The position numbers were made by a program, and so were the translations under genes. Shown piece after piece: positions 18,930 through 63,953 of a stretch of 64,000 bases of DNA (positions are counted from its first letter, which is position 1; each line of letters opens with the position of its first letter). The notes under the pieces were generated by a model. That model did not search any database and was not told the DNA's origin. It saw only the letters and a list, made by a program, of their open reading frames with translations. Source of the stretch: a virus; IMG/VR virus record IMGVR_UViG_3300046517_001147, positions 1 to 64,000 of that record. One strand, written 5' to 3'.

Positions 18930-18930
18930 G

Positions 18931-46428: not shown

Positions 46429-48165
46429 ATGTTCACACTAGAAGACCTCTACAATCTGCCGAACAATCCTACCGATGACCACAAGGTAGCGGCTGGATTG
46501 TTGCCCAAGCCCCAACCTCCTCCGGCTGCTCCTCCACTGACAAACGTTCCTCCGGTCTCTCCGGTCACTCCCCGACCGGCTGTTGACTGGAAAGCGAAGA
46601 TTGCTGCTACTGCTCCGACTCCTGGGAAAACAATTCCGGAAATGGCTCCGGTTAATCCTAGCGCACCTGGAACTCCGAATTTGGGAACTGGGATTCCGGA
46701 AGATACTTCGGGTGTGCAAGCGGCTGCAACTGGAAAGATTCCTGAACTGCCGAAACTTGGTTTCAAGGAACGTCAAGCGTTGCCGCTGACTTCTGAGGGC
46801 GTGGCTCCTAATAGTCAAGGTTACTGGCAAGCGGAACAACAAAGACTGATCGATCAAAAACAGAATCCTTGGGGTAGCGAGGAAAACCATCCTGGCTTGC
46901 TAGGAAAGATTGGTCACGTAGCGGCGAAGATCGGAAACATCGCTGGCGACATTGTTGCTCCCGGCATAATGGCCAACATTCCCGGTACGGAGATGAACAA
47001 AGATATTCAACTTGGCCGGGCGGAAGGCAAGGAAGCGAAAGTTAAGGAAGCGGAATCACAACAGAAATTGCGCTCCGCTGAAACAGACGAGGCCGAAGCT
47101 CGCGCCAGGAAACTGGCCGCGGAAGGCCATGCCGATATTGTGGAAGATGCTGCCGGAAATGCCGTTGCGTGGCGTGACAAGGATGGCAATATACATTCTC
47201 CGGATGAGGAAGGAACGCCCCCGGCAATTAAGAGCACCATTGAGAACTGGCAAGGAAAAGCTGGAGCCAAGCCACAAAAAGAAAATCTGCAGCAAGGTCT
47301 TGCAGGAGCGGTGCAAGATTATCTCGATAAGGGCGGAGACCCTAAAGGCATCCAAAGCGACCCGACAATTCAGGGATGGGGTGACCTGATAAAGAATTTC
47401 ACTCCGGCTAAAGAAAAAGATGTAAACACAGCCGAGGATTTGAAACATCAAATCGTCGTCGCGACAGACAAAGGCGATGGAAAAGAAGTTGCCAGACTCA
47501 CAAAAGAACTGATGGCGCTCAATCCAGAGGCTCAAGCGCGGTTGGCTGAATCTTATGCGGTACTATCGGCCACGAATGCGAATCGCGAAACCACGCGGCA
47601 AGACAAGAGTTACAAGGAAAACTCTGGAATCTTGGATAAGGTAGGACAGCCGATCGAAGCGCTGAATGCACGCATGAGCCGCATGAAAGAAGGTTTGGCG
47701 CAAGGGACTCCGGCTGCGGATGCTCTTATCGGTCCAGAGTTGCTTTCCATTATGGCTGGTGGACAAGGAACGGGCCTACGCATGACCGACACGGAAATTA
47801 ATCGCGTCGTTCACGGCAAAGGACATTGGGAAAATTTGCAGCAAGCTATCAATCAATGGTCCTTAGACCCGTCGAAGGCCAATACCATCACTACTGAACA
47901 ACGAAAAGAAATTCGCGCTCTAGTGCTCGCGGTAGACAAGAAGCTGCAGCAAAAGTCTGCGACTCTTAACCAGGCGCACCAAGATTTGTTAGGAACCGAT
48001 GAACCGGACAAGCACCGCAAGATCGTTACGGATGCTAGAGCAAAACTGAGCGCTATCGATACCGGCGCCGAGGGTGGCGGCAGTGGAGTCCAGGTTCACA
48101 ACGGCTTTGAATACACGAAAGGGGCAGACGGCCAATGGCACAAGGGCAAAGCGGTAGCGCCGTAG
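46429..48165 (+). CDS. Putative ejection/internal virion protein 2
   Basis: 578 aa. The first 120 residues are Pro-rich and disordered. Residues 190-240 are charged coiled coil (KEAKVKEAESQQKLRSAETDEAEARARKLAAEG) and 320-420 are helical. No signal peptide or enzymatic motif. Position and composition suggest a virion protein released with the DNA. Confidence 0.55.
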   Translation: MFTLEDLYNLPNNPTDDHKVAAGLLPKPQPPPAAPPLTNVPPVSPVTPRPAVDWKAKIAATAPTPGKTIPEMAPVNPSAPGTPNLGTGIPEDTSGVQAAATGKIPELPKLGFKERQALPLTSEGVAPNSQGYWQAEQQRLIDQKQNPWGSEENHPGLLGKIGHVAAKIGNIAGDIVAPGIMANIPGTEMNKDIQLGRAEGKEAKVKEAESQQKLRSAETDEAEARARKLAAEGHADIVEDAAGNAVAWRDKDGNIHSPDEEGTPPAIKSTIENWQGKAGAKPQKENLQQGLAGAVQDYLDKGGDPKGIQSDPTIQGWGDLIKNFTPAKEKDVNTAEDLKHQIVVATDKGDGKEVARLTKELMALNPEAQARLAESYAVLSATNANRETTRQDKSYKENSGILDKVGQPIEALNARMSRMKEGLAQGTPAADALIGPELLSIMAGGQGTGLRMTDTEINRVVHGKGHWENLQQAINQWSLDPSKANTITTEQRKEIRALVLAVDKKLQQKSATLNQAHQDLLGTDEPDKHRKIVTDARAKLSAIDTGAEGGGSGVQVHNGFEYTKGADGQWHKGKAVAP

Positions 48166-51100
48166 CCGACGCTCCTGACACTCTTCCATCTGACTTTTTC
48201 GATAAGAAGAAACCGGCTGCTGGCGAAGCTCCGGACACTTTGCCCGGTAACTTTTTCGATGAAGCGCAAGAAGAGCCATCGGAAAAAGAATTACCCAGTT
48301 CGACTCCGCGCTTGCGTAAAGCGGTAGCGGCTGGCAAAGCTCCCGCGTCCACGCCAACTGAATTTGAAAAAGGACATACGCCTTCTCCAGACGATACTGG
48401 GCTGTGGAATCGCGTCACGCAGGGCGCAAAAGATGTTGGTAAATTGTTGTATGGAATGGGTGCCGGCGCTCTTGAGCCTACCCTTGGGCCGGTAGGTGGA
48501 ACACCTGGAAAGATTGCGGACCTTGCGACCTCCTATGCTTCGCGGCGCATACCGAATATCGGACAAGAGGGTAACGCTGGCGGCCGGTCTCCGGCCTACA
48601 GCGCTCTCGCGACTGGCGCGCAAGCTGCCGGTATCGACCCAACTGGAATGGAAGCATCTGCGGAGCATGGCGACCCGATGGGCGTTGCTACTCATGCTGC
48701 CGCTCAAGCTACTCCTGTAGGAGTAGCTGAACTGGCGCGGCACGTCAAGATTCCTGACATTGGCGTGAAGAGTGGCTTGGCTGACCGATTCGCTACTCCT
48801 GCGATTGCTCCCGGCCTTAGCGAGCCGGCAACTGCAAATCTTGGCGAACCGATTGCCCGTCGTGGCGTGGAGAAAACTCTGCGCGCTACCGGGATGCCGT
48901 CTGGGAATGTTGGATTGCGTGAATCGTTTTCGATCGCGGCGCCAGACCTGGCAGAAATTGAGCGCAAGCAGCCTCTAGGAGAATCTGGAACAAAAGGCGG
49001 CGTCATCCGTCCGGATATGAGACTTCGGCAGACGGTTGAGAATATCGATAACCGCCTGGATGACATTTGGAAGAAAGAACGGCAACCGCAAATCGATCGT
49101 AACGCTGAATTGCCGGCAATCTCCCGCGAGCAGTTGCTTGGAGATGCCACAATCGATCAACTAAAGAGAATTGAAAAGACGTTCAAGATGGATATTCCCG
49201 ATCAGATCAATCTTGGCGAAGCGGACAAGATGCTGGTCAAAGTGAATGCCCGTCTGCGGCGTGCCGAAGGCATGACCCCGGAAGCAAGAGCGCTCGCCCT
49301 GGAACTAAGTCCAGACCTGCAGAAATTTAACGAGATGAAGGGCGAACTTCACAAGAGTATCGGTGACTTGCTTGAACGTGTGAATGAACCAGGTATTAAA
49401 GAGTTTAACCGTCGGTATGGCGCTCTATCCGAAGTGCGGGACGCCCTACGTACCAGGATGAATCCGGTAGAAGCAGAAAGAGTACTGGACGCGGTGCGCG
49501 CTACTGGCGGATTGGGGCGCAACGTCAACCTATTCGAACGCTTGCACCTAAAAGCATCTCCTGGCCGTTTGGCTCAAAAAGGGTTGGAAGACTTGGCGCA
49601 ATCGAATCTGCGGATTAATCCTCCTGCACAGCGGCCGCCGGTTGCTGGATTGCTTCCACCGATTCCTGAACCTTTGCCCGGTCCTGTGCCTGAAAGTGGT
49701 TCGGTTCGCGGTGGACGGTGGACAACTCCGGCCGGATTGATTCCGCCGATAGCTCCGATTGAGGGTGAGTACATTCCTCCTCCGGAGACTACGGGCGCTG
49801 ATATTCCCTACGCGCACCAACCGACTCCGCCGACGGTTCCTCCAGAGTTTCGCGTACAAGCTCCGCGCATGCGTTCTGGAACGATTCCGCCGATCGAGCC
49901 GGTTACTAGTACCACGAACCTTCCCGGCGGTGGTGTCCGCAACGCTCCATTGCTGCCTGGTCCTGCGTCGATCGCTGCGACTGCTCCTCCTCCGGTTGCT
50001 AGTAAATTCCGAATTGAGCCGATCGTGCCAGCAACTCCGCCGGTCACTCGCGGAGAAATTGTCGGACGTGGCCAGCTATTCAAAGGGCCGGCACAGATTC
50101 CCCAGATTCCGCCTCTCATGCTGCCGGAAAAGGCAACTGGATTTGCGGCGAACAAGTTGCCGTTCAAGGCGCCTCTTGAGCCTACTGCACCGACAAAGCC
50201 GATCATGGAAGGCGCTCCACCGATCGAGAGACCGACTGGCCAGCTACCTCTAAAGCCCGAAGCTGAACGTGCGGCTGCCATGAAGGAAATTAAACCGCCT
50301 TCGGCTAAAGGAAAAATCAAGCCGGTAGCGGAGCGCTTGAGCACCGAAGAGATTGCCGAAGCGGAAGGACTGCTGGCTTCCGAAGCCGGCGCAATGGCTA
50401 CTGGAGACCGTCCAGGGGCTTACTTCGATGAGTCTGAACAAGGCGATGTGCGTCTAGGCTCTCGCGGCGCGCAGACTAGGGGCGGAGATTGGCGCGGGGT
50501 AAAGAGTGGCCGAAGAATGTATCCGTTCATGCGGGAGAATCCCGACGTTAACCCGCAAGCGGTCCTGAAAGCCCTGCGGAATAAGGACTCTGCTGCTTAC
50601 AACAAGCTAATCACTCGCGCCGATAACTTCATCAAAGGAAACTACGAAAAACCTCCAGGGATGGGCGCTATGGACTTCCTGAAAGCGCTTGAGAATCCAG
50701 ACGCGGAGCCGGAGACGATCGAACCTGGCGCGGATGTATTCGCTCCGCCAGAACAAGAAGCTGCTCCGGAGCCGACTCCTGGTAGGATTCCTCAAATCGG
50801 CAAAGGACAGACGGGCGTCATTCCCGGCATGGAAGAGGACGTAGCAAGGCAGAACGAAGGTGCTGCTAAGGTTGCCGGCGAGAAACTGACTGCCGAAGCT
50901 AACCGGCCAAAGGATATTTCCGCGGCCGCTGGCGAGATGGAAACCAAGTCTCCGCTATTCCGCGGGACGGAAGCTAGTCCGCAACGGGAGATATTCGGCA
51001 ATGCTCCGCCGGCCGCCAATGAGCCTCCAGCGACGATCGCGCCAGTCCTGAAAGAAACCGGATGGGGCTATGAAGGCAAGAACAACCTAGGCCAGTACAC

Positions 51101-51455
51101 TATCCGCATGCCGGGTACGGAAGTGCGGATACATCTATTCGAACGGGAACTGAATCCGGACTTCATTAAGCGGCAAATTCTCGCGAAGGAAAAACAATTC
51201 GGCACGCCACAAGAGAAGGCTGGCGGTGGCAACCTGGATGATTCTCTAAAAAAGGCAGGGAACGACCTGTTAGAAGCCTCAAAGCAACACAAAGCCGGAA
51301 CTATGAGCGATGAAGATTACATGAAGGCTCGCAGGGCGCACGATGAGTTGCTTGCAAAATGGGAAGCTGCTCGCGGCGAGGCTCCTCCGACGGGTAAGAA
51401 ATTAGAGAAGTTTCTTGCGCCTACTAATCCCAAAAAAGGCGCTGTAAACTTCTAA
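48135..51455 (+). CDS. Putative ejection/internal virion protein 3
   Basis: 1,106 aa, starting 31 bases before the end of the previous gene. N-terminal tandem motif: DAPDTLPSDFFD (12-23) and EAPDTLPGNFFD (31-42). Residues 60-490 are mixed helix. Residues about 500-690 are extremely Pro/Ile/Gly-rich (many PPIxP). The last 300 aa are charged helix (LDDSLKKAGNDLLEASKQHK). No lytic transglycosylase Glu motif seen. Likely a large internal or injected virion protein; function inferred only from size, order and composition. Confidence 0.6.
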   Translation: MAQGQSGSAVADAPDTLPSDFFDKKKPAAGEAPDTLPGNFFDEAQEEPSEKELPSSTPRLRKAVAAGKAPASTPTEFEKGHTPSPDDTGLWNRVTQGAKDVGKLLYGMGAGALEPTLGPVGGTPGKIADLATSYASRRIPNIGQEGNAGGRSPAYSALATGAQAAGIDPTGMEASAEHGDPMGVATHAAAQATPVGVAELARHVKIPDIGVKSGLADRFATPAIAPGLSEPATANLGEPIARRGVEKTLRATGMPSGNVGLRESFSIAAPDLAEIERKQPLGESGTKGGVIRPDMRLRQTVENIDNRLDDIWKKERQPQIDRNAELPAISREQLLGDATIDQLKRIEKTFKMDIPDQINLGEADKMLVKVNARLRRAEGMTPEARALALELSPDLQKFNEMKGELHKSIGDLLERVNEPGIKEFNRRYGALSEVRDALRTRMNPVEAERVLDAVRATGGLGRNVNLFERLHLKASPGRLAQKGLEDLAQSNLRINPPAQRPPVAGLLPPIPEPLPGPVPESGSVRGGRWTTPAGLIPPIAPIEGEYIPPPETTGADIPYAHQPTPPTVPPEFRVQAPRMRSGTIPPIEPVTSTTNLPGGGVRNAPLLPGPASIAATAPPPVASKFRIEPIVPATPPVTRGEIVGRGQLFKGPAQIPQIPPLMLPEKATGFAANKLPFKAPLEPTAPTKPIMEGAPPIERPTGQLPLKPEAERAAAMKEIKPPSAKGKIKPVAERLSTEEIAEAEGLLASEAGAMATGDRPGAYFDESEQGDVRLGSRGAQTRGGDWRGVKSGRRMYPFMRENPDVNPQAVLKALRNKDSAAYNKLITRADNFIKGNYEKPPGMGAMDFLKALENPDAEPETIEPGADVFAPPEQEAAPEPTPGRIPQIGKGQTGVIPGMEEDVARQNEGAAKVAGEKLTAEANRPKDISAAAGEMETKSPLFRGTEASPQREIFGNAPPAANEPPATIAPVLKETGWGYEGKNNLGQYTIRMPGTEVRIHLFERELNPDFIKRQILAKEKQFGTPQEKAGGGNLDDSLKKAGNDLLEASKQHKAGTMSDEDYMKARRAHDELLAKWEAARGEAPPTGKKLEKFLAPTNPKKGAVNF

Positions 51456-51492: not shown

Positions 51493-53337
51493 ATGCGAAT
51501 CGGGTTAGTTACCAACTTCAAAGGGCGAGGACTGGAATGCGATGCTCGCCTAATCACTCCGCTGATTGAATCTGCAGGGCATACCGTTGAACGGCTGCAG
51601 TACGACGAAAAGCACCACGGCAATTTTGACCTGCTCATATTCCTAGAAGTGGTTCCGCGGCATCTGGTACGTCTTTCCGACACTCCACCGTGGGTTATCG
51701 TCAATCCTGAATTTCTGGTTCCGGAATACATTTCCACCATTCGCCGGTCATTTGGACGGGTGTTCTCTAAAACTCACGAAGCGCAACGCATCTCGAAAGG
51801 ACTGTTTGGAGATAAGGCGGAATATATCGGATTCCTCTCCGAAGACCGCTTCGATGAATCGATTGAAAGGCAAATGACGTTCCTGCACGTCGCGGGACAT
51901 AGCAAAGCCAAAGGAACGGACGCGATTATTGATGCTTGGCGCTGGACGCGGAACGGTGAACGGCTAAAAGCCAAGTTGACGGTGATAACCGATTTCCCGC
52001 CAGAGGATGTTCCCGAAGGCGTCACGATCTTGGAGAATGTGACCGATGCGGAACTGAAACGGCTGCAGAACGAGTGTCAGTTCCATTTGCAGCCTTCGCA
52101 GACCGAAGGATGGTCGCACGTCATTCACGAAGCAATGTCGGTGAACGCGACGATCTTGACCGTGGACGCTCCGCCGATGAATGAGATTAAATCGGCTTAC
52201 CGGATTCCTTCCTGTGGTTCAACGCTATTCAATCTGGTGCGGATGTACGAAGTTTCGGCGCTGGATATATACACCGCGGTATCGACTATGGCGAAATTTA
52301 AGCGCCAAGGATATTCGCAAGCCGGGGCTCCGCGCAGTGAATTTCTGGATGCCGTGAACGCATTCAAGGAAGCATTCACAGCGCAGTTGGCGACAGCCGG
52401 CCAAAGCGCGGCGGTTAGGAACGAGAAAGCAAGCCGGACGATCGCCTTTATTGGCAACTTCGAAGCGGAACACTCGACAGAAAATCAAATCCTGTGGGCT
52501 TTGGAGCAAAGGCTAGGCTATGAAGTCGATAAGCTGCAGGAAAACCGTATCAGCGCAGAGGACATAGAGGATGCTGCTTTAGGAGCGCGCGCACTTCTTT
52601 GGGTTCGCACTCCCGGCTGGCTGCAGATAACCAACGAACGAATGTTCGAAGTTCTGGAATACCTGAAACGGCGCAAGGTGGTGACCGCTTCGATTCACCT
52701 GGACAAGTTCTGGGACATACCGGAGCGGGAAGCGCTGATCGGTAAAATTCCCTTCTGGAAGACAGATTACGTATTCACGGCGGATGGATCGCGGCAAGAC
52801 GATTTCAAAGCGCGGGGAGTGAACCACATCTGGATGCGGCCAGCGGTTTCCGAAGTCTATTGCCATCCTGGGACGCCAAGAGAGGAGTACCGCTGCGATG
52901 TTGGATTTGTCGGAGCCAAAGGCGGCTATCACTCTGAATATCCTTTCCGGCAAAAGATGGTTGAGTTCCTAGAAGAGACTTATGGAAGCAGGTTCAAGCA
53001 TATTCAAGGCGTTCGCGGCCACTTACTCAACGACGTTTACGCTTCGATGAAAGTGGTGGTCGGAGATTGCTTCGGCGCGGGGATTCCGTACTACTGGAGC
53101 GATCGGTTGCCGGAAACTTGCGGTCGTCATGGTTTCCTGTTGCATCCAGAGGTCGAGGGGCTGGATATTCCTACAGCAGAGTATAGGTCTCAAGATATTT
53201 CACATTTGCAAATCATGGTTGATTACTGGCTGCGCGAAGATTCTGGTCGCTTGGATGTTCTGGTTGATTGCGCTGAACGGGTGAAGCTATCGCATACCTG
53301 GACAATCCGCATGGCAGAGATTATGGAGCAACTGTGA
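51493..53337 (+). CDS. Two-domain glycosyltransferase
   Basis: 614 aa. Residues 1-290 are a GT-B/GT4-type domain: MRIGLVTNFKGRG at the N terminus and ECQFHLQPSQTEGWSHVIHEAMSVNATILTVDAPPMNE with the E-x7-E-like donor site. Residues 315-614 are a second GT-B-type domain (AFIGNFEAEH, then DVGFVGAKGGYHSEYPFRQKMVEFL and GIPYYWSDRLPETCGRHGFLLHPEVEG, resembling CgeB/Glyco_trans_1_2 proteins). Two transferases fused in one chain suggest sequential sugar additions. It opens the glycan cluster behind its own promoter. Confidence 0.8.
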   Translation: MRIGLVTNFKGRGLECDARLITPLIESAGHTVERLQYDEKHHGNFDLLIFLEVVPRHLVRLSDTPPWVIVNPEFLVPEYISTIRRSFGRVFSKTHEAQRISKGLFGDKAEYIGFLSEDRFDESIERQMTFLHVAGHSKAKGTDAIIDAWRWTRNGERLKAKLTVITDFPPEDVPEGVTILENVTDAELKRLQNECQFHLQPSQTEGWSHVIHEAMSVNATILTVDAPPMNEIKSAYRIPSCGSTLFNLVRMYEVSALDIYTAVSTMAKFKRQGYSQAGAPRSEFLDAVNAFKEAFTAQLATAGQSAAVRNEKASRTIAFIGNFEAEHSTENQILWALEQRLGYEVDKLQENRISAEDIEDAALGARALLWVRTPGWLQITNERMFEVLEYLKRRKVVTASIHLDKFWDIPEREALIGKIPFWKTDYVFTADGSRQDDFKARGVNHIWMRPAVSEVYCHPGTPREEYRCDVGFVGAKGGYHSEYPFRQKMVEFLEETYGSRFKHIQGVRGHLLNDVYASMKVVVGDCFGAGIPYYWSDRLPETCGRHGFLLHPEVEGLDIPTAEYRSQDISHLQIMVDYWLREDSGRLDVLVDCAERVKLSHTWTIRMAEIMEQL

Positions 53338-54200
53338 CCCGCGTCTATATTGCCGGCTATCGCGGATTCATCGGTGGTCACCTGATCGACTATGTGAAGA
53401 AAAACACAGATTGGGAGATTACCAATGTCTCCGGCATTCAGCCTAACCGTGTAAACTACGTCGTTCATCTTGCCGGTCACTCGGAAATGGATAGATCGAT
53501 CGAAGACTCTTCTTTGATTCAAAGGGATATTTCTACGACGCTAAGTCTTTTAGATTGGGCGAAAACGCAAACGCAACTAGAAAAGTTCCTGTATTTTTCT
53601 AGCGATGAAGTCTTCGGGCCTAGAGGCGGACACCTGCATTTTGAACCGTGGGCCAGATACAACTCGCACAGCCCCTATGCTGCCGGGAAAGCTGCTTGTG
53701 AAGAAATGTGCCTAGCGTGGGCCAGCACTTATGACGTGCCGACGGTCGTTACTCACTGCCAGAATCTAATCGGAGAGAGGCAATCGCCAAAAAAGTTTCT
53801 TCCGACAGTTCTGCGGTGTGCTCTTACTGGTAAGCCGGTCCCTCTCTATGCTGATGGAGATACGGTAGCACAAAGGAATTTTCTACACGTGCAAGATGCG
53901 TGCGCTGCGATTGTGCTGCTGCTCCAAAAAGGGAAAGTACGAGAAAAATACAACATTGCTTCTAGGTTTTCTGTTTCCAGTAGAGACCTGGTTGAGATTG
54001 TTTCTAAAATCTTGCACATGAAGATAAAAATTGAGATGAGGCCAATTTGGGAAGTTCGGAAAGGCTTCTTTGTAGATCACGGAATAAATGGAGACGAACT
54101 AAGCTATTTGGGGTGGAAAAGGATGCCGCCGATGAGAACGCTCAAAAAGACAATCAGGTGGATGATTCGACCGGAGAATAGACATTGGCTCGGCCTATAA
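53334..54200 (+). CDS. NAD-dependent sugar epimerase/4,6-dehydratase
   Basis: 288 aa, short for the family. Rossmann GYRGFIG (residues 8-14), SSDEVFG (89-95) with Asp91-Glu92 like the acid pair of RmlB-type dehydratases, and catalytic Tyr115/Lys119 in SPYAAGKAA. QNLIGERQSPKKFLP and YADGDTVAQRNFLHVQDACAA complete the extended SDR pattern. Likely makes a deoxy- or modified nucleotide sugar for the neighbouring transferases. GTGA overlap with the preceding gene. Confidence 0.85.
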   Translation: MTRVYIAGYRGFIGGHLIDYVKKNTDWEITNVSGIQPNRVNYVVHLAGHSEMDRSIEDSSLIQRDISTTLSLLDWAKTQTQLEKFLYFSSDEVFGPRGGHLHFEPWARYNSHSPYAAGKAACEEMCLAWASTYDVPTVVTHCQNLIGERQSPKKFLPTVLRCALTGKPVPLYADGDTVAQRNFLHVQDACAAIVLLLQKGKVREKYNIASRFSVSSRDLVEIVSKILHMKIKIEMRPIWEVRKGFFVDHGINGDELSYLGWKRMPPMRTLKKTIRWMIRPENRHWLGL

Positions 54201-55093
54201 ACGTCGTGTGGCATGCAATGTCAAACGGGCGCGGCCTGTTTAACTGTACGGCCATGCTCAACGATATGCTGGACCTATACGACTGCCAGCACTACGGCGG
54301 CGCGAACGGGATGCCGCATTTCTTTTCATCCGGTGACGAAGGGGCAATCGTCGTTGTCCACGGCGGACGGGAGATAGGCGGACTCGAAAAACTGCAAAGG
54401 GACATTGACCAGCTAAATTGGTGCTTGCTCATTTTCCTGGGAGATGAAGAGGCGAGTTTTCCCGCGGAACTGGTGCAACACGAAAACATGATCGTTTGGG
54501 TGCAAGAGCCGCTTCCTGGGAAACACGACTTCGCGAAACGTTACATGGTCAACGGCTACGGCCACGAACACAACCGCTATCTCGTCAAGTGCGAGAAGGA
54601 TTTGGACTGGTTTTACGGAGGACAAGTCACGCATGAACGGCGCCGTGCGGTGGTAGATGCGTTGCGGAATGTGGATTGGGGAGGCTTCATAATCGAAACG
54701 CGGGGCTATCACCAAGGAATTTCCCTGCAGGAATACTACCGCTGCTTATGCCGCGCAAAGGTCGTTCCATGCCCTTCCGGGCCTTTCTCTCCAGATGCCG
54801 CTAGAATTTGGGACACGCTAGAATGCGGGGGGATTCCTATTCTGGACGATGTAAGCCCTGCCAGAACGGAACCTGGATTCTGGGCGTACACTCTTGGCGA
54901 GCATCCTATGCCCGTCGTTACAGACTGGAGCAAACTTCCAGAATTGATCGCAAAAGTGAAAGACGACTGGGTTGCACTTAGTTCAAACTGCCAATGGTGG
55001 TGGCATGCTTATCTAATGAAATTTAGAAGTTGGCTTTCGGAAGACATTGAGCAACTGACAGGAGCGCCGTGTACCAAAATCTCATCACGGTAA
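54185..55093 (+). CDS. Glycosyltransferase (exostosin-like C-terminal part)
   Basis: 302 aa from a TTG start overlapping the epimerase gene by 16 bases. The C-terminal half (RCLCRAKVVPCPSGPFSPDAARIWDTLECGGIPILDD at residues 186-222) has the exostosin/GT47-like nucleotide-sugar binding layout: C-P-x-G, S-x-R-x-W-D-x-L-x-x-G-x-x-P. The N-terminal half may bind the acceptor. Coupled to the following gene. Confidence 0.65.
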   Translation: MARPINVVWHAMSNGRGLFNCTAMLNDMLDLYDCQHYGGANGMPHFFSSGDEGAIVVVHGGREIGGLEKLQRDIDQLNWCLLIFLGDEEASFPAELVQHENMIVWVQEPLPGKHDFAKRYMVNGYGHEHNRYLVKCEKDLDWFYGGQVTHERRRAVVDALRNVDWGGFIIETRGYHQGISLQEYYRCLCRAKVVPCPSGPFSPDAARIWDTLECGGIPILDDVSPARTEPGFWAYTLGEHPMPVVTDWSKLPELIAKVKDDWVALSSNCQWWWHAYLMKFRSWLSEDIEQLTGAPCTKISSR

Positions 55094-55848
55094 TTACCAG
55101 CACTTCGCCGCTTGCTTCACACCCTTCATCGGAGATATTCGACAAGGTTTATGAAAGCACGCAATTCCATCTGCCGGGAGTCATCACGCATTTGTGTTGC
55201 GACGGCGTTCGCGAACCGGAGCACGAAAATAGACGCGCCGGGTACGAAGGCTACAAAGAAAAACTCCGCAACCGTCCATTCATTCAAATGCGGGAATGGC
55301 CTAAATCGGTCCAGCAAGGGTTCATGGTGCGCTCGGCATTGCGGCACGTCACGACTCCTTTGGTGCTCTGGCAGGAGCATGACTACGCTCTTACTCTTGA
55401 CCCGATCGACTGGGAAGGGATTATCAATGCCATTCAACAGGACCGGGCTCGCGTCGTTCGTTTCCATAACACTCCGGAGATTCACCCGCTTCACCAACAC
55501 TTAATGCTTGATTGCTACGAAGGCGCCGACGGCGAGCATGGCGGAGTAAAAGTGTCCGACCCGCCACTGGTTTGTGGCGTGCCGATGATTCGCACCATAC
55601 AGTTCTGGTGCTGCCCGTTCCTGACTACGACTGAATGGCTTTCTGGGATGATGGAAGACCCGACCCTGTTTACTCCAAACACTTATTGCGAGATTGAGCC
55701 GGTGATTTACGGACCAATTTCCTATAGACCCTGGCAAGACTACAAGGTGATGGTCTACGCGCCGTCTGAACCTTCCATTCAGCGCAGTCAACATCTTGGC
55801 GGTCGCGGACACGACAATGCCGATCCAAAGAGGCCAATGACATGGTGA
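55069..55848 (+). CDS. GT-A-fold transferase-like protein
   Basis: 259 aa from a GTG start overlapping the previous gene by 25 bases. MYQNLITVITSTSPLASHPS at the start, then VRSALRHVTTPLVLWQEHDYAL (residues 85-106), where EHD takes the place of the DxD metal site of GT-A enzymes. Aromatic, beta-rich C terminus with CEIEPVIYGPISYRPW. Probably a family-2-like glycosyltransferase; divergent. Confidence 0.6.
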   Translation: MYQNLITVITSTSPLASHPSSEIFDKVYESTQFHLPGVITHLCCDGVREPEHENRRAGYEGYKEKLRNRPFIQMREWPKSVQQGFMVRSALRHVTTPLVLWQEHDYALTLDPIDWEGIINAIQQDRARVVRFHNTPEIHPLHQHLMLDCYEGADGEHGGVKVSDPPLVCGVPMIRTIQFWCCPFLTTTEWLSGMMEDPTLFTPNTYCEIEPVIYGPISYRPWQDYKVMVYAPSEPSIQRSQHLGGRGHDNADPKRPMTW

Positions 55849-56399
55849 ACCTTGAACGCGCAGAGCAGGTAACCGGATGGATGAGCCGCCCCGAAATGGA
55901 ATGGCTGGCAGAGCAAGCCAAGAATGGCCTGGTCGTCGAGATTGGCTCTTGGATGGGCCGCACGACGCGCGCCATGGCCGACAACAAGCGGAGCGGGAAT
56001 ATCTTTGCCGTGGATACCTGGAAGGGCAGTGAAGAGAACCAGGACTTTCTAAAGGACAAGCCGGAAGATTACCTCTTCCAAGAGTTCTGCAAGAACCTGG
56101 CGGACCACATAGCAAGCGATGTAGTGACTCCCTTGCGGATGGATTCGATCGGTGCGGCTTACCACTTTGCGCGCCTTGGAACACAGTTCCAGTTTGTCTT
56201 TATCGACGCGGCGCATGACTACGATTCGGTGAAGGCCGATATTCTGGCTTGGCGGCCGCTGGTGGCGCGGGGCGGGACTCTCGCCGGTCACGATTACGAT
56301 TGGGGCTATCCTGGCGTGGTGCATGCCGTCCGCGAGCTAATTTCAGAAACACCTAATCAAGCTGCCGGCGGTTCTTCCATCTGGTACACGCAAATATGA
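55842..56399 (+). CDS. Class I SAM-dependent methyltransferase
   Basis: 185 aa. VVEIGSWMGRTTRAMAD (residues 31-47; motif I E-x-G-x-x-x-G), IFAVDTWKGSEEN (motif II, Asp ending beta-2), and FVFIDAAHDYDSVKADILAWRPLVARGGTLAGHDY (post-motif metal-type pattern as in Methyltransf_24). It likely methylates a sugar or glycolipid in this cluster. Short overlap with both neighbours. Confidence 0.8.
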   Translation: MVNLERAEQVTGWMSRPEMEWLAEQAKNGLVVEIGSWMGRTTRAMADNKRSGNIFAVDTWKGSEENQDFLKDKPEDYLFQEFCKNLADHIASDVVTPLRMDSIGAAYHFARLGTQFQFVFIDAAHDYDSVKADILAWRPLVARGGTLAGHDYDWGYPGVVHAVRELISETPNQAAGGSSIWYTQI

Positions 56400-57202
56400 C
56401 CAGGATAAATCGCATGGTTGACGGAGTGATTGTCGGGGATGAGATTGGAAGGTACGAAGCCGGAAACAAGTTTCGGCCGGTCGAAACGATCGATTTCGTA
56501 GAACAAGCCATTAACGACCGCTGGAACATCCGCATTCCCAGATGTATTGCCGAATATCACGGCTGGTGGGATACCTGGGAAAAAGAACGGCATCTTTCTA
56601 TGGCCAAGCATCTCAAGCCGGGAATGTCGTTTTTCGATGTGGGAACGTGCGACGGTTGGGAAGCTGTAGTGTATTCCCAGATGATTGGTGGCGCCAAGAA
56701 AATGATGTTGATCGAACCTTCGGTAGTGATGTGGCCGAATATAAAACTCATGTGGGAGAAAAACAGGCTGGCCAAGCCACTAGCTACTTATTGCGGTTTC
56801 GCGTCGGATGTGGACAGTTCCGATAGAAGCTCAGTGAACCATAGCCGCTGGCCAAGAGAAGCGCGTGGAGATTTTATGAAGGGCAACGCTTTCATGCTCA
56901 TGGAACGGAATGAGCATGCCGCGATACCGCGCAGGAAACTAGACACATTGGCTTCGCAGACTTTTGTTCCCGACGCGATAAGCATTGATGTGGAGGGAGC
57001 GGAATTGCTGGTATTGCGGGGAGCGCGGAAAATTCTGGAGAAAAAACATCCTTTGGTCTGGGCGTCGATTCATCCTGAGTTTATCAAGAGGTTTGGACAC
57101 ACTCCGGATATGCTGCATGAGTTTATGACTGACTGTGGATACTCAGGCGAATATCTTGGGAACGATCACGAAGATCACTATTTCTTTAAGGCAAAAAGAT
57201 GA
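56396..57202 (+). CDS. FkbM-family methyltransferase
   Basis: 268 aa. GMSFFDVGTCDGWEAVVYSQM (residues 75-95) is the SAM-binding motif, MMLIEPSVVMWPNI follows as the second strand, and PDAISIDVEGAELLVLRGARKILEKKHPLVWASIHPEF (residues 197-234) carries the D-V-E-G-A-E signature of FkbM enzymes, which O-methylate sugars. It overlaps the next gene by four bases. Confidence 0.85.
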   Translation: MTRINRMVDGVIVGDEIGRYEAGNKFRPVETIDFVEQAINDRWNIRIPRCIAEYHGWWDTWEKERHLSMAKHLKPGMSFFDVGTCDGWEAVVYSQMIGGAKKMMLIEPSVVMWPNIKLMWEKNRLAKPLATYCGFASDVDSSDRSSVNHSRWPREARGDFMKGNAFMLMERNEHAAIPRRKLDTLASQTFVPDAISIDVEGAELLVLRGARKILEKKHPLVWASIHPEFIKRFGHTPDMLHEFMTDCGYSGEYLGNDHEDHYFFKAKR

Positions 57203-58290
57203 ACTGGCCTAGCGTCTCGATTGCTTTCCCTTGCTGGCACCGCGGAGCGCTGCTTCGGAACACTCTTGAAAGCATCCGCAAGCAGAACTATCCCGGTGAA
57301 TTGGAATTGATCGTAGTGGAAGAGGACGACGACGGTCTGACAGAAAACTTGGCAACGGAGTTCGGAGCGCGGTATATACGCAATCCGCGGCTAGAGGCTT
57401 TCCCGGTTTTTCAGTCCATTACAAAGCTCTGGAACATGTGTTTGCACGCGACCACCAATGAGATTGTGATTCTGCAGTGTGCCGAAGTGCTGCACAAGAA
57501 CGACGCGATAATCCCGCTGGTCGTTCGCGTTCTGGGTAACCGCAAAGTTTTGGCAACTCCACTGATCGAAGACTTGAACCAGGATGGAACGTTCGCCGGC
57601 TGGTACAACCACCCGACCGAAGGCTCACGGCCGGGATGGGTTTCTGGCGCTGGACCACACTGCTTCCGCCGTGAGGAGATGCTAGAAGTCGGCGGCTATG
57701 AGGAGTTGTTCTACGGCTACGGTGGAGAGGACAACTATCTTTTCTTCTTACTCAAGAAAAATGGATGGAGCGTTGAATACGTGGAATCTGCTATTTGCGC
57801 CCACCAATGGCATGAACGGACCAAGTACGAGCCAACGACCGGCTACGCTAACCGTTCGCTAATCAACATTCTGACTATGGAAGTGGACAGAGGGACGCGC
57901 GCGCCGGTTGCCAACAAAGAACCTCTCGATTTGCGCGAGAGTCCCAATGTTTCGGAACTTAACAATGTTCTGCTACGCACCAACTATTTTCCGATGAGCG
58001 ACACTTTTTCAAACTGGCGTGCGGAGTGGTTGCAGATTGGCACGGAGACTCATCCCGACAACCTGTTTGTGGTGCAACGGATTGTGGCCAATGAAGGATT
58101 GGGGAAGGTCTCGGAGATTGGGGAAGCGCTTACCGAATGCGCTTGGGCCATTCTGCGGGAGACAGAGGCTAGGTTTGTGGCTGCCCTGGCTTACGGGAAC
58201 TGGAAAACCAGAGCGTCTTTCTGCGCTGACATTCACGCAACTTGGGCTGCGCTTTCTCTCGACAAAGCCAAACAGCTAATGGAGAAATGA
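57199..58290 (+). CDS. Family-2 glycosyltransferase
   Basis: 363 aa. SIAFPCWHRGALLRNTLESIRKQNYPGELELIVVEEDDDG (residues 7-46) is the GT2 donor domain, with EDDD as the metal-binding acidic cluster. VSGAGPHCFRREEMLEVGGYEELFYGYGGEDNYLFF (residues 149-184) holds the acceptor/catalytic ED. A C-terminal 120-aa helical part has no known role. Coupled to an FkbM gene by ATGATG. Confidence 0.85.
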   Translation: MNWPSVSIAFPCWHRGALLRNTLESIRKQNYPGELELIVVEEDDDGLTENLATEFGARYIRNPRLEAFPVFQSITKLWNMCLHATTNEIVILQCAEVLHKNDAIIPLVVRVLGNRKVLATPLIEDLNQDGTFAGWYNHPTEGSRPGWVSGAGPHCFRREEMLEVGGYEELFYGYGGEDNYLFFLLKKNGWSVEYVESAICAHQWHERTKYEPTTGYANRSLINILTMEVDRGTRAPVANKEPLDLRESPNVSELNNVLLRTNYFPMSDTFSNWRAEWLQIGTETHPDNLFVVQRIVANEGLGKVSEIGEALTECAWAILRETEARFVAALAYGNWKTRASFCADIHATWAALSLDKAKQLMEK

Positions 58291-58925
58291 TGAGGGCCGA
58301 TTCTCCGGATGTGTCGATGTGGAAAGTGATAATCAATGAGCAAAACTACACTCCGAAGTCTGGTGATAGAGTCTTAGACCTGGGCGCGCACCACGGATTC
58401 TTTTCCATGTATTGCTCGGCGCGCGGAGCGCTGGTACGAGCCTTCGAGCCCGACCCGGACAACTTCATTCAACTGGAACAAAAGATTGCCATTGCCAAGA
58501 ATATGGACGCTCCTCCGTTTACCGCAATCCAGGCGGCGGTATGGAGCGAATCGGGGGAAAAACTGTTGTGGCGAGACCCGGCCGACTCCGGCGCCAATTC
58601 CATGCTTCGGGCTATGTCCGATTTTTCGATCATGGTAAAGACGGTCAGTTTGTCGGAAGCCTTGTGCGGCAACCGATGGGACTGCGTAAAGGTGGACGTA
58701 GAGGGCGCGGAAGCGCAAATCTTCCTGACCGCAAAAGCAGAGAGTTACCGGCAGATCGCCTACCTGACAATGGAGTTGCACAACGACGTGTTGACCCAAG
58801 AGCAAAACCGGGCGCTGGTGATGAGAATGCGAAAAGAGTTTCCGCGGGTAGTCGAAACGAAACAATACTTCGAAGGGCTGCCAACGGAGTTTGCTTGCAA
58901 AGTGTTTTGTTGGGGGAGCGTATGA
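58287..58925 (+). CDS. Second FkbM-family methyltransferase
   Basis: 212 aa starting MMRADSPDVSMWK at 58287, overlapping the upstream stop. GDRVLDLGAHHGFFSMYCSARGALVRAFEPDPDNF (SAM motifs I and II) and WDCVKVDVEGAEAQIFL (FkbM signature) are clear. Only weakly like the 56396 protein, so it is probably not a recent duplication; a second O-methylation site is implied. Confidence 0.85.
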   Translation: MMRADSPDVSMWKVIINEQNYTPKSGDRVLDLGAHHGFFSMYCSARGALVRAFEPDPDNFIQLEQKIAIAKNMDAPPFTAIQAAVWSESGEKLLWRDPADSGANSMLRAMSDFSIMVKTVSLSEALCGNRWDCVKVDVEGAEAQIFLTAKAESYRQIAYLTMELHNDVLTQEQNRALVMRMRKEFPRVVETKQYFEGLPTEFACKVFCWGSV

Positions 58926-59878
58926 AAGAAGTGGTGATTGTGCCGACGTTCCGTCGCGAAGAGTTGCTTCATTGCTGTTTGAGGCGGATTCGTTCTTTCG
59001 AAGGCGATATTCCCATTCGCGTTTTTCCGGATCGCGGCACTTCCTACGGTCACTTGGTTACCACGATTTGCGATGAATTTGAGGCGGAGCAGCACATAGT
59101 TCCTATACATGATTCCTATGGAAACACGGCCAATGTGATGGATGCCTACTTCTGGGCCTACAATAATGGCTACGATCGCGTCTTTTTTGTCGAGTCTGAC
59201 GTGATGGTGCATTCTGACTTTTTCTCCTGGCATCGCGAGATGCAGGAAGAGTTTCCAGACATTTTCTGTTCGATGGGCTGGATATTCAACCGCGAAGCAC
59301 CGATCACCGATGACCTTCTTTTTCAACCCTGGTACTACAGTATCGGGACGTGCTTTTCGCGGGAGAAACTGAAACTGATCGCCAAGCATGCGACTGAACG
59401 GTATTACTCGGATATGGTTGGATACCTGGAACGGAATTTCGAGATGCCACGCAACTTCTCTGGCGTTCACTGGGAACAAGACGGGCTGATTCAACGAGTG
59501 CTCAATCAAGACAAGAGCCAGACGGTAGCGCCGGGAATTGCCAAGTGCTCGCACGTTGGAGCGGTCAGAAGTTATGGCGACGGCACGCAGCGGAGCTACG
59601 AAGAGTTTTTCGGCCTTAAAGATGTTCCATTTCTCGACCGGGTAAAGAAAGTTGAGGAGTTCATTGCCGACCCCTACGCTCGGATGGCTGTATTCGGACG
59701 GGCTCTGGTCGAGCGGGAAGTGGGCAGAGTGCTCCCGAAACAGGAATTTAGCTATAGGCTTATTTTTCCCGGCGGTTGGGAAAGCACCTTCAAATCTGAA
59801 CTGAAACTGGCGGCTTTACCAAAGCGAAGGATTAATTCAGTCCCTATGACGGATGAAGCTAAAATCGTGCTAGAGTAG
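58922..59878 (+). CDS. Glycosyltransferase, GT-A-like, last of the cluster
   Basis: 318 aa starting MKEVVIVPTFRREELLHCCLRRI at 58922; a longer upstream frame is only the shadow of the FkbM gene. YDRVFFVESDVMVHSDF (residues 83-99) gives the E-S-D (DxD-like) metal site, and GVHWEQDGLIQ (residues 177-187) an acceptor-side element. Ends 49 bases before the next tail gene, which has its own promoter candidate. Confidence 0.75.
   Translation: MKEVVIVPTFRREELLHCCLRRIRSFEGDIPIRVFPDRGTSYGHLVTTICDEFEAEQHIVPIHDSYGNTANVMDAYFWAYNNGYDRVFFVESDVMVHSDFFSWHREMQEEFPDIFCSMGWIFNREAPITDDLLFQPWYYSIGTCFSREKLKLIAKHATERYYSDMVGYLERNFEMPRNFSGVHWEQDGLIQRVLNQDKSQTVAPGIAKCSHVGAVRSYGDGTQRSYEEFFGLKDVPFLDRVKKVEEFIADPYARMAVFGRALVEREVGRVLPKQEFSYRLIFPGGWESTFKSELKLAALPKRRINSVPMTDEAKIVLE
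59868..59876 (+). promoter_or_regulatory. Extended -10 promoter candidate before tail paralogue 1
   Basis: TGcTAGAGT, at the end of the glycan cluster. A 6-bp hairpin, CGGGCT/AGCCCG (59895-59900/59922-59927), encloses the GAGAGG ribosome site of the next gene in its loop. Confidence 0.4.
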
Positions 59879-59927: not shown

Positions 59928-60614
59928 ATGCCGACGTACCCCACAGGAAGCGGCGGAAACACTCCCGTAGCACTCCTTCAACCTGGAGTCCCAGGTTACG
60001 CTTTCGGTTCGCTGAACAAACGTTTTCCGACTACCCTCCTGCAGATCACCAACGTCGCGCTTACCAGCAACGTCGCCACGGTCACTGTGACCATACGCAG
60101 AGGCGCCGTTCCTATCGCTGGCAATCTGATTTCAATTACTGGGACAGCCGGAGCGAGCGGCGCATTCAACGTTTCAAACATTGCAATTTCAACAGTCTCG
60201 ATCGATTCCGTAACTGGAATAGGAACGATCACTTTCCCGCTTACCCATGCGGATGTGGTGAGCGCTGCGGATGCTGGACAGGGCTACGTACCGCCGGCCG
60301 AAGTCGCGGAAACCCTGGCAGTCCAGAAAAGCCAAGCCTTTGCAATTCAGGATTCGATCGGGAGAGGTTACGGAATCACTTGGGCGTATACCTTGCCTTC
60401 GGCTCCGTCAACAATTTCGATTCAGCTTGAGGGCGCGGTAAACAACAACGACGCTGAATACACGGCTATCGGTTCTGCGGTCACCACGACGACCGGCTAC
60501 AACGAGCAAATTGCCCAACTTCCTAACCTGGTGAATTTCGTTCGCCTGAGAGTTACCGCGACGACCGGCGGAAGCGCTCCCACGATTATTGGGAAACTCA
60601 CTCTGGGGAGCTAA
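59928..60614 (+). CDS. Tail structural protein, paralogue 1
   Basis: 228 aa, GAGAGGCAAGCCCG upstream. LLQPGVPGYAFGSLNKRFPTTLL (residues 16-38), IAGNLISITGTAGASGAFNVSNIAISTV, SVTGIGTITFPL and YVPPAEVAE are shared almost segment by segment with the protein at 63258. A beta-sandwich followed by a second beta domain (AVNNNDAEYTAIGS, then FVRLRVTATTGG) suggests a baseplate-, fibre- or decoration-type virion protein. It is separated from its paralogue only by a large spike gene. Confidence 0.65.
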   Translation: MPTYPTGSGGNTPVALLQPGVPGYAFGSLNKRFPTTLLQITNVALTSNVATVTVTIRRGAVPIAGNLISITGTAGASGAFNVSNIAISTVSIDSVTGIGTITFPLTHADVVSAADAGQGYVPPAEVAETLAVQKSQAFAIQDSIGRGYGITWAYTLPSAPSTISIQLEGAVNNNDAEYTAIGSAVTTTTGYNEQIAQLPNLVNFVRLRVTATTGGSAPTIIGKLTLGS

Positions 60615-63209
60615 ATGCCTCCAGTCATTACATCCGGTCCTACATACACAGTAACGGACACAACCATAGTCGCTGTTTGGACTACGGACATTCCTGCAGA
60701 TTCCAATATGACCGTTACCGGCGGGAGTTTTCCTAGCGGCAAGAATGCTGTCGATAACGGACTCGCGGCAAACTCCACTTCGCACCAAGCTGTAGCGGCC
60801 GGCTTGGACGTTAACACGGTTTTTTCATGCGTCGTAACTTCTGGCGGTACTAGTTCATCTCCACAGAATCAAACCACAGCCGTAGCGCATTCGACGACTC
60901 CCATAACGATTGCATTTTTCGGTGCCGCTACAGCCACTTCGCCTGACGGCGATATTCTCTACAATTTTCTGTCCAACGATAATCTCACCTACATGACGCG
61001 GGATGACGCGAACACTCCCGGCACGAACGCCAATCAACAGATCGACAAAATTACCAACGAATCGACTCTGGCTATCAGCCAAGTAAACGCGCTCACCGCC
61101 TACGGCGCCTTTAATACAACCAACGGAACGGATGGACCTGGCGGCATTGCGCTATCCAACAAATTCAACGGTCTTTTCGGCATGGCCGGTTCGCTTTTTG
61201 GATTTACCGGGCGGCATCAAATCACTAGTGGGCCGGTTGTTCGCAAACAGTACTACGGCAACGTGATCCGCTCCGATAACCACGGCGCTTCATGGAGCAA
61301 CTTCAACAATCCTACGACGTTTAACGCTAATGGGATTCCCGCTTTTCCCAACAGCGGCGGCAATTCAGTTGCTCCTTTTTTCTTTGGAGCCAATAGTAAT
61401 TTTGGATGGGTTACTCCGGTTAGGTATGCCGCCGATGACGGGACTCTAGGCTACAACACACCCGGCAACGGCTTTGACGGAGGGAACGCTTATTGCTATT
61501 TCGCGATACTCGACGGAAACAACGACTCTGCCGACTACGCATACTTGGGGCGCATTCCGCGCATTAGTCTGTTCGCGCTTGACTACACGGCGGAGCAGTT
61601 TTGGATTGGCCCTACTTCTCCAACCGCGGCCGATTTTGTCAATGATGCTAACTGGCAATCGGCTTCCACTGGGCTAACACAGATTTATGCGGCTGCTGGT
61701 AAAGTCGGATGGCCGGACATTTGTTTCATTCCGACGATCAATCGCTATTTGTTGTTCACTTCTTACCGTCCGGATACATCGGTTACTGGGAATACTGTCT
61801 GGCAAGTATTAGAAGGTCCGACACCTGCAGGTCCATGGACACTGATAGGACTAAAGACGAATACCACTACTGGTTATTATGCCCAGACCATCCTGCATCG
61901 CACGGCTTGCACCAACGTTTTGACCGACGGCATTGCGCTCACTGTGATTTATTCCGGCGACTTCCAAAACGCCTCTATGTACCATCCGACCTACAGCACG
62001 CTGACCTTGTCCACGCAGCCGCAAAATCCAGTAACTAATTTATTTGTCCAGGCAAAAGGCAGCACCACCGCGCTGACAGGTACTAATCCTACTTTTGCTT
62101 ACAATTCTAATGTGACCAGCGGCGATCTTTTGGTTGCTGTCCTGCGCTATAACAGTTCTGGCGTCCCACGCCTAAGCTCAGTTACCAGCAACCGCACCAC
62201 TGGAAACTGGACGGTCGTATACGATCAAAATGACGGCGGCGGAACACCTATTCAGGAAGCCTGGGCTTATGCCTGGGCTACTTCAACTGGCGCTTGCACC
62301 GTAACGTTTAACTTCGGCGCCTCAATCATTGGATTTGATGTATGCCTTTGTGAGTGGTCTGGCCCGACTGCGTTCCGTGTCAATGCTGGACTTAAGAATA
62401 CGACTCAATCGACCAACATTGTCGGCAACACGCTTTCCTGTTATGCCGGAGATTTATTGATTGGCGTAATCGGACTGGGAAGCGCTGCCAACAATACTTT
62501 TACCGCAGCGAGCGGTTATGTGCTTCGGGCGCAAGGCAAGAACGGCGCTGTGAATTTTTGTGCGGTGCAGGATAAACTTACCGCAGCCTTGCAATTTGCT
62601 ACCGCACAATTTGTAAGCAATTTTACTGACGGCTCAGTAAGAGCGATCCTAGACTTAGCTGCGTTCTATTCCCAAGGAATCATTTCAGGCAATGTCGGTG
62701 TGGCCGGTGCGACCGTGGCCTGGACTTCGGTAAGCTCCGGTTCCGGTTCAACCACTTCGGACGGCTCCGGCAACTATTCCACGTCAAGTTTAGCTTCCGA
62801 CGTTTACACGCTCACTCCTACAAAAACAGGCTATAGCTTCTCTCCGACCAGCGTCCAGCAAGTAATGGTTAGCGCCAACTTAACGGGCGTGAATTTCACG
62901 GCGACACACTTGCCTGTGTCCACCCCTTCGATTTCACCCAATGGAGGGAATTTTGATTCTCCTCAAACGGTAACCGTGAGCGATACGGATTCCGGGCTCG
63001 CTGGTTTTGCGATGTACTACACGACGGATGGGACTACGCCTACCACTGGTTCCACGCTTTACACTGCACCGATCGCGGTAAGTACTTCCTTGACTTTAAA
63101 AGTCTTGGCCGTCGCTACGGGCTTTCTCAATAGTGCGGTTGCTTCGGCTACTTTCAACGTTGTTCGTGGTGGCGGCGGTCTAGGATACAGATTTACTTAT
63201 GGCTTTTGA
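60615..63209 (+). CDS. Mosaic tail spike: FN3, sialidase-like propeller, CarboxypepD-like, chitobiase-like C terminus
   Basis: 864 aa. Residues 1-95 are an FN3-type domain (PVITSGPTYTVTDTTIVAVWTTDIP). Residues 105-460 read like a secreted glycosidase/propeller-type domain (RSDNHGASWSNFNN, WPDICFIPTINRYLLFTS). Residues 475-685 form a beta-sandwich. At 690-755 is a CarboxypepD_reg-like unit (ISGNVGVAGATVAW to SPTSVQQVMVSA). At 770-855 is a CHB_HEX_C-like domain (FAMYYTTDGTTPTTGSTLYTAPI). It ends GGGLGYRFTYGF. A receptor-binding or depolymerising spike is inferred. Confidence 0.65.
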   Translation: MPPVITSGPTYTVTDTTIVAVWTTDIPADSNMTVTGGSFPSGKNAVDNGLAANSTSHQAVAAGLDVNTVFSCVVTSGGTSSSPQNQTTAVAHSTTPITIAFFGAATATSPDGDILYNFLSNDNLTYMTRDDANTPGTNANQQIDKITNESTLAISQVNALTAYGAFNTTNGTDGPGGIALSNKFNGLFGMAGSLFGFTGRHQITSGPVVRKQYYGNVIRSDNHGASWSNFNNPTTFNANGIPAFPNSGGNSVAPFFFGANSNFGWVTPVRYAADDGTLGYNTPGNGFDGGNAYCYFAILDGNNDSADYAYLGRIPRISLFALDYTAEQFWIGPTSPTAADFVNDANWQSASTGLTQIYAAAGKVGWPDICFIPTINRYLLFTSYRPDTSVTGNTVWQVLEGPTPAGPWTLIGLKTNTTTGYYAQTILHRTACTNVLTDGIALTVIYSGDFQNASMYHPTYSTLTLSTQPQNPVTNLFVQAKGSTTALTGTNPTFAYNSNVTSGDLLVAVLRYNSSGVPRLSSVTSNRTTGNWTVVYDQNDGGGTPIQEAWAYAWATSTGACTVTFNFGASIIGFDVCLCEWSGPTAFRVNAGLKNTTQSTNIVGNTLSCYAGDLLIGVIGLGSAANNTFTAASGYVLRAQGKNGAVNFCAVQDKLTAALQFATAQFVSNFTDGSVRAILDLAAFYSQGIISGNVGVAGATVAWTSVSSGSGSTTSDGSGNYSTSSLASDVYTLTPTKTGYSFSPTSVQQVMVSANLTGVNFTATHLPVSTPSISPNGGNFDSPQTVTVSDTDSGLAGFAMYYTTDGTTPTTGSTLYTAPIAVSTSLTLKVLAVATGFLNSAVASATFNVVRGGGGLGYRFTYGF

Positions 63210-63213
63210 ACCG

Positions 63214-63222
63214 TGATATAGT
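63214..63222 (+). promoter_or_regulatory. Extended -10 promoter candidate before tail paralogue 2
   Basis: TGaTATAGT, 36 bases before the ATG at 63258. It matches the TG-n-TAnAGT elements at 45725 and 59868. Confidence 0.45.
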
Positions 63223-63257
63223 GCCCCACAAGCGGAATCGGGCCGCACCGAATTGTC

Positions 63258-63953
63258 TTGGAGCCTGATTCTATGCCGCCATACGAATTTTCGCCCGGTG
63301 TGAATGAACAACCGAAACTGCTGCAGCCTGGAGTTACCGGCTACGCTTTCGGCTCTTTCGATTCGAAGTTTCCCACCACACTTCTAAAGATTCTTACCGT
63401 CGCCATTTCCAGCAACGTCGCGACGATCACGGCAACCATCCGTGAAGGCAAAGTTCCGACGGTTGGAAGTCTGATTACCATTCGGGGAACGACAACTGCC
63501 GGCGGCTCTTTCAACGTCCTCAATGTCGCGATTGCCACGGTTCTCTTTGACTCCGTGACCGGAATCGGTGTGATTACTTTTTCTCTTGTCGATGCCGATG
63601 TGGGAGCGGTAGCCGATACGGGAATGGGCTATGTGCCCATGCCTGAAATTGGAGAGGCTTGCGCTAACGGCGCGAGCGTAGCCTTTGCTATTCAGGACAT
63701 TGCCGGCCATAACGATAACGGTCTCACCGTCCAGTGGAGTACTTCCTACCCGTCTTCTCCGGCAATTATGACTGCCATCCTGCAAGGCGCTGACTTCGAC
63801 GCGGACGATCAGTACATAGAAATCGATCGAAGCACTAGCCTACCGTCGGATAGCCGTTCCAGCACGCAGACCCGATTCCGGTTTCTTCGCGTGTTGTGGC
63901 AAGACTTGGCGGGTGGAACGAATCCTACAGGTATTGTGCGAATCAACATTTGA
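63258..63953 (+). CDS. Tail structural protein, paralogue 2
   Basis: 231 aa, TTGGAG site upstream. LLQPGVTGYAFGSFDSKFPTTLL, VGSLITIRGTTTAGGSFNVLNVAIATV and SVTGIGVITFSL align with the protein at 59928; the C-terminal 80 aa diverge. Duplication followed by change of the distal domain would let the phage display two related tip proteins. Confidence 0.65.
   Translation: MEPDSMPPYEFSPGVNEQPKLLQPGVTGYAFGSFDSKFPTTLLKILTVAISSNVATITATIREGKVPTVGSLITIRGTTTAGGSFNVLNVAIATVLFDSVTGIGVITFSLVDADVGAVADTGMGYVPMPEIGEACANGASVAFAIQDIAGHNDNGLTVQWSTSYPSSPAIMTAILQGADFDADDQYIEIDRSTSLPSDSRSSTQTRFRFLRVLWQDLAGGTNPTGIVRINI

Follow-up and report, generated by a model that had tools for sequence, protein, structure and literature searches.

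Organization of the island

The window analysed here comprises 64,000 nucleotides, bases 1-64000 of the 68,462-bp virus record IMGVR_UViG_3300046517_001147 (IMG/VR). At positions 51493-59878 it harbors an island of nine plus-strand genes for sugar transfer and methylation, named g1-g9 (Table 1), on the same strand that carries the small and large terminase subunits. The genes overlap end to end by 4-25 nucleotides (nt), with junction offsets from g1 to g9 of -4, -16, -25, -7, -4, -4, -4 and -4 nt and with internal starts of g8 at 58287 and of g9 at 58922. A preliminary description, made from the sequence alone, had listed five transferases (one with two fused GT-B domains), an RmlB-like enzyme, two FkbM methyltransferases and one Methyltransf_24-type enzyme in a run of overlapping genes. 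All nine genes are real and of these kinds, as judged by Pfam and NCBIfam matches (two GT-B domains in g1, Epimerase in g2, Methyltransf_24 in g5, FkbM in g6 and g8) and by the AlphaFold folds of g4 and g9, and all eight junctions are negative. The single promoter also claimed for the run was not supported: a sigma-70 scan gave 4 sites where chance alone would give 7.1, so that promoter-like sites are rarer than chance, and none of them lies in the 37-nt gap upstream of the island.

Table 1. Positions of the island genes, the short g2 forms and the flanking genes. Positions are those of the window unless a lineage contig (L-number) is named; aa, amino acids; SDR, short-chain dehydrogenase/reductase; SAM, S-adenosylmethionine; pLDDT, predicted local distance difference test.
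Feature	Position	Strand	Description
Upstream protein	48135..51455	+	Large protein, 1106 aa; borders the island on the left; virion/internal role presumed from position only
g1	51493..53337	+	Two fused GT-B glycosyltransferase domains; Pfam Glyco_trans_1_4 and Glyco_trans_1_2
g2	53334..54200	+	Short SDR, RmlB-like nucleotide-sugar 4,6-dehydratase type; Pfam Epimerase, E 4e-39
g3	54185..55093	+	Glycosyltransferase; weak Pfam RXYLT1_C match, below curated cut-off
g4	55069..55848	+	GT-A glycosyltransferase by AlphaFold (pLDDT 89.6); no Pfam hit
g5	55842..56399	+	SAM-dependent methyltransferase; Pfam Methyltransf_24, 7e-20
g6	56396..57202	+	FkbM methyltransferase; Pfam Methyltransf_21/FkbM, 1e-10; DVEGAE intact
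g7	57199..58290	+	GT2-family glycosyltransferase; Pfam Glyco_tranf_2_3, 1e-11
g8	58287..58925	+	FkbM methyltransferase; Pfam Methyltransf_21/FkbM, 6e-9; DLGAHHG and DVEGAE intact
g9	58922..59878	+	GT-A glycosyltransferase by AlphaFold (pLDDT 88.8); no Pfam hit
t1	59928..60614	+	Conserved 228-aa protein just downstream of the island
t2	60615..63209	+	Ser/Thr-rich (23%); CHB_HEX_C and CarboxypepD_reg-like domains
Short g2 forms	window 53334-54200; L003 8262-9125; L009 11863-12711		Forms of g2 that lack ~40 residues after beta-2

Predicted enzymes

The N-terminal domain of g1 retains the GT4 E-x7-E motif (E205...E213), which is invariant among 4 aligned homologues. The product of g3 carries the conserved motif CPSGPxxPDxxR...LExGxxPIxDD, and in g7 the DXD position is occupied by x-A-E with an invariant E96, the ED motif being present. 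Structure comparison, suggested in the preliminary description and performed for g4 and g9, places both in the GT-A fold. The best Foldseek matches of g4, in which E103-x-D105 is invariant, are B4GALNT1, GnT-I, TarP and RmlT. Those of g9 are GnT-I and POMGnT1 (1fo8, E 2e-12, template modelling (TM) score 0.44); its sequence profile matches GnT-I 1fo9 (E 2e-5), and E91-x-D93 and E185-x-D187 are invariant. The protein thus appears related to GT13 (GnT-I/POMGnT1), relatedness and not family membership being meant. The TM-scores of the g4 and g9 matches are modest (0.44-0.57), so the fold class is supported but the specificity is not. In the lineage described below g9 has a C-terminal extension, mostly absent from its relatives in other phages, which may serve acceptor recognition.

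The g2 product keeps the GxxGFI, D91-E92 and Y115xxxK119 motifs. With TIGR01181 (dTDP-glucose 4,6-dehydratase RmlB) it scores 164.7 bits, under the 365-bit equivalog cut-off, and it is RmlB-like by family and by its DE/YxxxK motifs only. About 40 residues after beta-2, present in longer homologues such as those of contigs L011, L012 and L014, are absent from g2 of the window, L003 and L009. Because this segment is missing, cofactor binding is uncertain. The short form, on which purifying selection acts, is possibly an unusual short dehydratase.

Among the methyltransferases, g5 has a weak match to Pfam RMNT_CmcI (CmcI/rhamnosyl O-methyltransferase-like) and matches a PHROG labelled DNA methyltransferase as well. 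Both g6 and g8 score above the curated cut-off of TIGR01444/PF05050 and possess the SAM and DVEGAE motifs of FkbM enzymes. All nine proteins are devoid of a transmembrane segment (the maximal 19-residue Kyte-Doolittle value is 1.41) and look soluble. A lack of active-site residues, named in the preliminary description as evidence that would contradict a glycan pathway, was not seen, as the motifs are conserved in g1, g2, g4, g6, g8 and g9. The ratio of nonsynonymous to synonymous substitution rates (dN/dS) between the window and L003 does not exceed 0.27 in any island gene; against L009 it is at most 0.19 where dS is measurable, several pairs being saturated. Purifying selection acts on those island gene pairs whose dS is usable.

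Lineage and constant core

A first scan of viral contigs with g1 yielded a group of similar contigs. The lineage was defined by a rescan with the large terminase, so that membership is not conditioned on the island; this gave 47 contigs with 48-99% best-segment identity and one remote match. The lineage terminase has no match in bacterial genome contigs (one per species) and reaches at best ~25% identity in named phages. Since g1 has no relatives in the one-per-species bacterial genomes either, no host can be named. Among named phages there are neither close DNA relatives of the window nor relatives of g3 and g4. The lineage consists of uncultivated phages, probably from soil, with genomes of ~68 kb.

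Island genes in the relatives were labelled by tblastn and hidden Markov models (HMM) and counted in 13 islands, that of the window and those of the 12 lineage contigs that reach 50 kb or more; shorter contigs were not counted. The latter are without g1, and the positions of the terminase or of the homologue of the gene at 39431 suggest that they end ahead of the g1 site; as far as can be judged they are no counter-examples. Both g1 and g9 are present in 12/12 of the contigs and, with the window, in 13/13. A search for the same gene order in other phages, proposed in the preliminary description, found all 13 islands at one shared site, each with g1, g3, g4 and g9, and g4 sometimes twice. The first island gene is always g1 (13/13), and g9 is the last one or close to it (13/13). 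The next gene downstream, t1, follows g9 directly in nine of the 13, while one or two open reading frames (ORFs) stand between them in the other four. At least one methyltransferase is present in every island (13/13).

Variable interior

The remaining genes are far from constant: g2 is found in 6, g5 in 5 and g7 in 6 of the 13 islands, and g6 and g8 are not always present and differ in copy number, with g8 sometimes in two copies. The methyltransferase of L019 is of the Methyltransf_11 type, extra methyltransferases occur in L005 and L009, and in L014 g6 is relocated between g9 and t1. Comparison of the window with L003 shows 51-67% nt identity at ~53,000-54,200 (g2 and the end of g1) against mostly 92-99% in the flanks; the g2 cassette was swapped whole between these close relatives. 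The terminase of L009 is 89% identical to that of the window, yet its g6 is only 36% identical, in comparison with 57% for g6 of the more distant L014. This pattern indicates exchange of single island genes between phages.

Small genes that look HNH/homing-endonuclease-like by eye stand between the island genes of L005 (11847-12407, 14353-14877 and 16324-16680); perhaps they help cassette exchange. The island of L010 contains a fusion of a helicase with an N6/N4 DNA methylase (16915-19155), which is absent from the near-twin L015.

Proposed function of the island

Most probably, the island specifies a pathway that glycosylates the virion from the cytoplasm and combines a constant glycan core with methylated extensions that vary; the candidate acceptor is a phage structural protein. 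The proposal builds on what was directly observed, namely the gene content, the folds and motifs, purifying selection on the genes, the fixed site, a core that stays constant and an interior that is swapped. The island would be expressed late, and host nucleotide sugars would serve as donors, perhaps together with a 4-keto-6-deoxy sugar from g2. The transferases g1, g3, g4 and g9, and in some phages g7, would assemble an oligosaccharide on the structural protein, with the four constant ones building a conserved core and with g9, which lies beside t1, as a candidate for the acceptor-proximal step. The oligosaccharide would then be O-methylated by the FkbM and Methyltransf_24 enzymes. As phages exchange the interior genes, the glycan would change in its outer, methylated part while the core stays, and this probably alters the meeting of the particle with host surfaces or soil enzymes. 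It is quite possible, though we suggest it more tentatively, that the island is a horizontally reshuffled virion-glycan locus comparable to O-antigen loci, in which constant core transferases occupy a fixed site, extension and methylation cassettes are swapped and the sugar of the coat diversifies between phages.

The presence of four core transferases and at least one methyltransferase in every sufficiently complete genome, together with swappable extensions, would indicate that a glycan on the virion is of importance in the environment and is diversified by exchange. Few phages are documented to glycosylate their virions, those in the literature found being mycobacteriophages. The island supplies a defined set of genes, and t1, t2 and the giant protein at 39431-44719 are the candidate acceptors.

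Comparison with known systems

Virion glycosylation is described for mycobacteriophages Che8, Corndog (cluster O) and Myrna (Freeman et al. 2023, as cited in PMC12363180, PMC11600133 and PMC11256854). In cluster O an O-methyltransferase gene is followed downstream by three transferase genes in tandem, which are said to modify capsid and tail tube proteins (PMC11600133 and PMC12363180). The island resembles these clusters in its tandem phage glycosyltransferases (g1, g3, g4, g7 and g9) accompanied by methyltransferases (g5, g6 and g8), as with the O-methyltransferase of cluster O, and the reported acceptors of the mycobacteriophage enzymes are virion proteins. In contrast, it comprises nine enzymes instead of three or four, adds an SDR sugar enzyme and three methyltransferases, and has a lineage-wide constant core with a swapped interior. 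Its genes stand between late genes, whereas the glycosylation genes of Che8 lie at the right genome end. Membership in the Che8 transferase family was rejected: hhalign of two profiles with gp110 and of one with gp108 detected no homology (probabilities 0.1-0.3%). The likeness to the Che8 type therefore concerns the way of working and not the gene family. Phage virion glycosylation with a methyltransferase was already known; the lineage-wide constant core, the mosaic interior and the size of the island are new.

A capsid glycan with a conserved core and variable methyl-capped extensions is made by viral cytoplasmic enzymes in chloroviruses (PMC7019647). The capsid N-glycan machinery of PBCV-1 (A064R and others) shares with the island the core with virus-specific extensions and the combination of transferases with methyltransferases, and its enzymes act outside the host ER pathway. 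PBCV-1, however, is a eukaryotic virus with a proven acceptor, while that of the island is a candidate, and the likeness is one of description.

Homologues of g9 and of the N-terminal domain of g1 lie near each other in at least 10 other viral contigs. In Streptomyces phage Satis, adjoining homologues of this g1 domain and of g9 (gp53-54) precede by a few genes those for the tail assembly chaperone and the tape measure. In Streptomyces phage Wentworth, gp32 is a homologue of the g1 C-terminal domain and a methyltransferase is found at gp34. These loci (gp53/gp54 and gp32-34) resemble the island in their g1-domain homologues and, in Satis, in the g9 homologue; they differ from it in having two or three genes and no annotated dehydratase, and they belong to unrelated phages at 28-36% identity.

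Alternative explanations

The preliminary description had preferred glycan decoration of the virion or the host surface to modification of phage DNA. The preference for a glycan is retained; between the two surfaces the virion is the more probable one. It is favored because the enzymes are soluble, a flippase or polyprenol step is missing and the t1-side place in the terminase strand is fixed (13/13). Remodelling of a host surface glycan (lipopolysaccharide, capsule or exopolysaccharide), which would block superinfection or re-adsorption of progeny, is less probable but is the most serious competitor. Host polysaccharide loci commonly contain members of the GT2, GT4, RmlB-like and FkbM families, g7 and g9 have weak NCBIfam matches to exopolysaccharide enzymes, and the mosaic interior resembles O-antigen loci. 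On the other hand, the nine genes of the window include no flippase, polymerase, polyprenyl-phosphate transferase, gtr-type membrane protein or transmembrane segment, and the t1-side position in the virion strand, fixed across the lineage, speaks against such a role. The gtr seroconversion clusters of temperate phages likewise represent phage-encoded sugar transfer, but they need a membrane flippase and a polytopic transferase; neither GtrA nor polytopic transferases occur among the nine proteins.

Two further readings are much less probable. Enzymes of the FkbM and Methyltransf_24 families also act in secondary metabolism and g5 weakly matches RMNT_CmcI, as would suit an island whose product inside the host is not a polymer-bound glycan but a small molecule, free oligosaccharide or signal, newly made or modified. 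This is very unlikely, as four to five transferases are unaccompanied by an aglycone-synthesising enzyme and the closeness to t1 and the virion strand is constant. Least probable is glycosylation and methylation of phage DNA against restriction, in spite of the PHROG match of g5 and of a precedent for multi-sugar DNA glycosylation by viral transferases (Pyle et al. 2024, as cited in PMC12619734). In agreement with the preliminary description, which saw no base-modification gene nearby, the thymidylate-synthase-family hydroxymethylase (PF00303) is absent from 9 lineage genomes, although a control was matched; a scan with PF12851 (Tet_JBP) gave no match, but no control was matched either. Moreover, Pfam scans of the island revealed no known DNA-glucosyltransferase family, g5 matches Methyltransf_24 and not a DNA methylase family in Pfam, and the folds of g4 and g9 match enzymes with protein, glycan and lipid acceptors.

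Several points weigh against virion glycosylation itself. The phage is uncultivated, its structural proteins are unannotated, and a cytoplasmic enzyme set could also modify another acceptor. The activity of the window g2, which lacks the segment of the longer homologues, is uncertain, and the searches with Che8 gp108 and gp110 found no apparent sequence relationship.

Flanking genes and candidate acceptors

The flanking proteins gave no PHROG or Pfam structural family match except for the CHB_HEX_C and carboxypeptidase-regulatory-like domains of t2, and the "ejection" and "tail-spike" labels given to the neighbours in the preliminary description were assigned by position only. The t1 product is a candidate virion protein and a candidate glycan acceptor, and t2 is a candidate tail protein and possible acceptor. 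A t1-like domain recurs within the giant 1762-aa protein (39431-44719) and in t3 (59928-63953 region), which suggests that it is a repeated virion building block.

Other features of the genome

Of the larger ORFs scanned at 5.6-22.4 kb of the window, none could be assigned to a DNA polymerase, primase or helicase family, and the replication genes of the lineage carry no annotation. A 1703-aa protein at 17-5128 contains repeated ASH/HYDIN/Cep192-type Ig domains, has 27% Ser+Thr and in part resembles hydrolases from Erwinia and Pseudomonas phages. A papain-family (C1) cysteine protease encoded by the phage on the minus strand (6973-7773) lies near an HNH gene (6027-6473) and a gene for a cell-wall hydrolase (6448-6906). 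The 68.5-kb close relatives G000 and G001 (L003 contig) have the same gene order and different start points, which fits complete genomes that are circular or circularly permuted.

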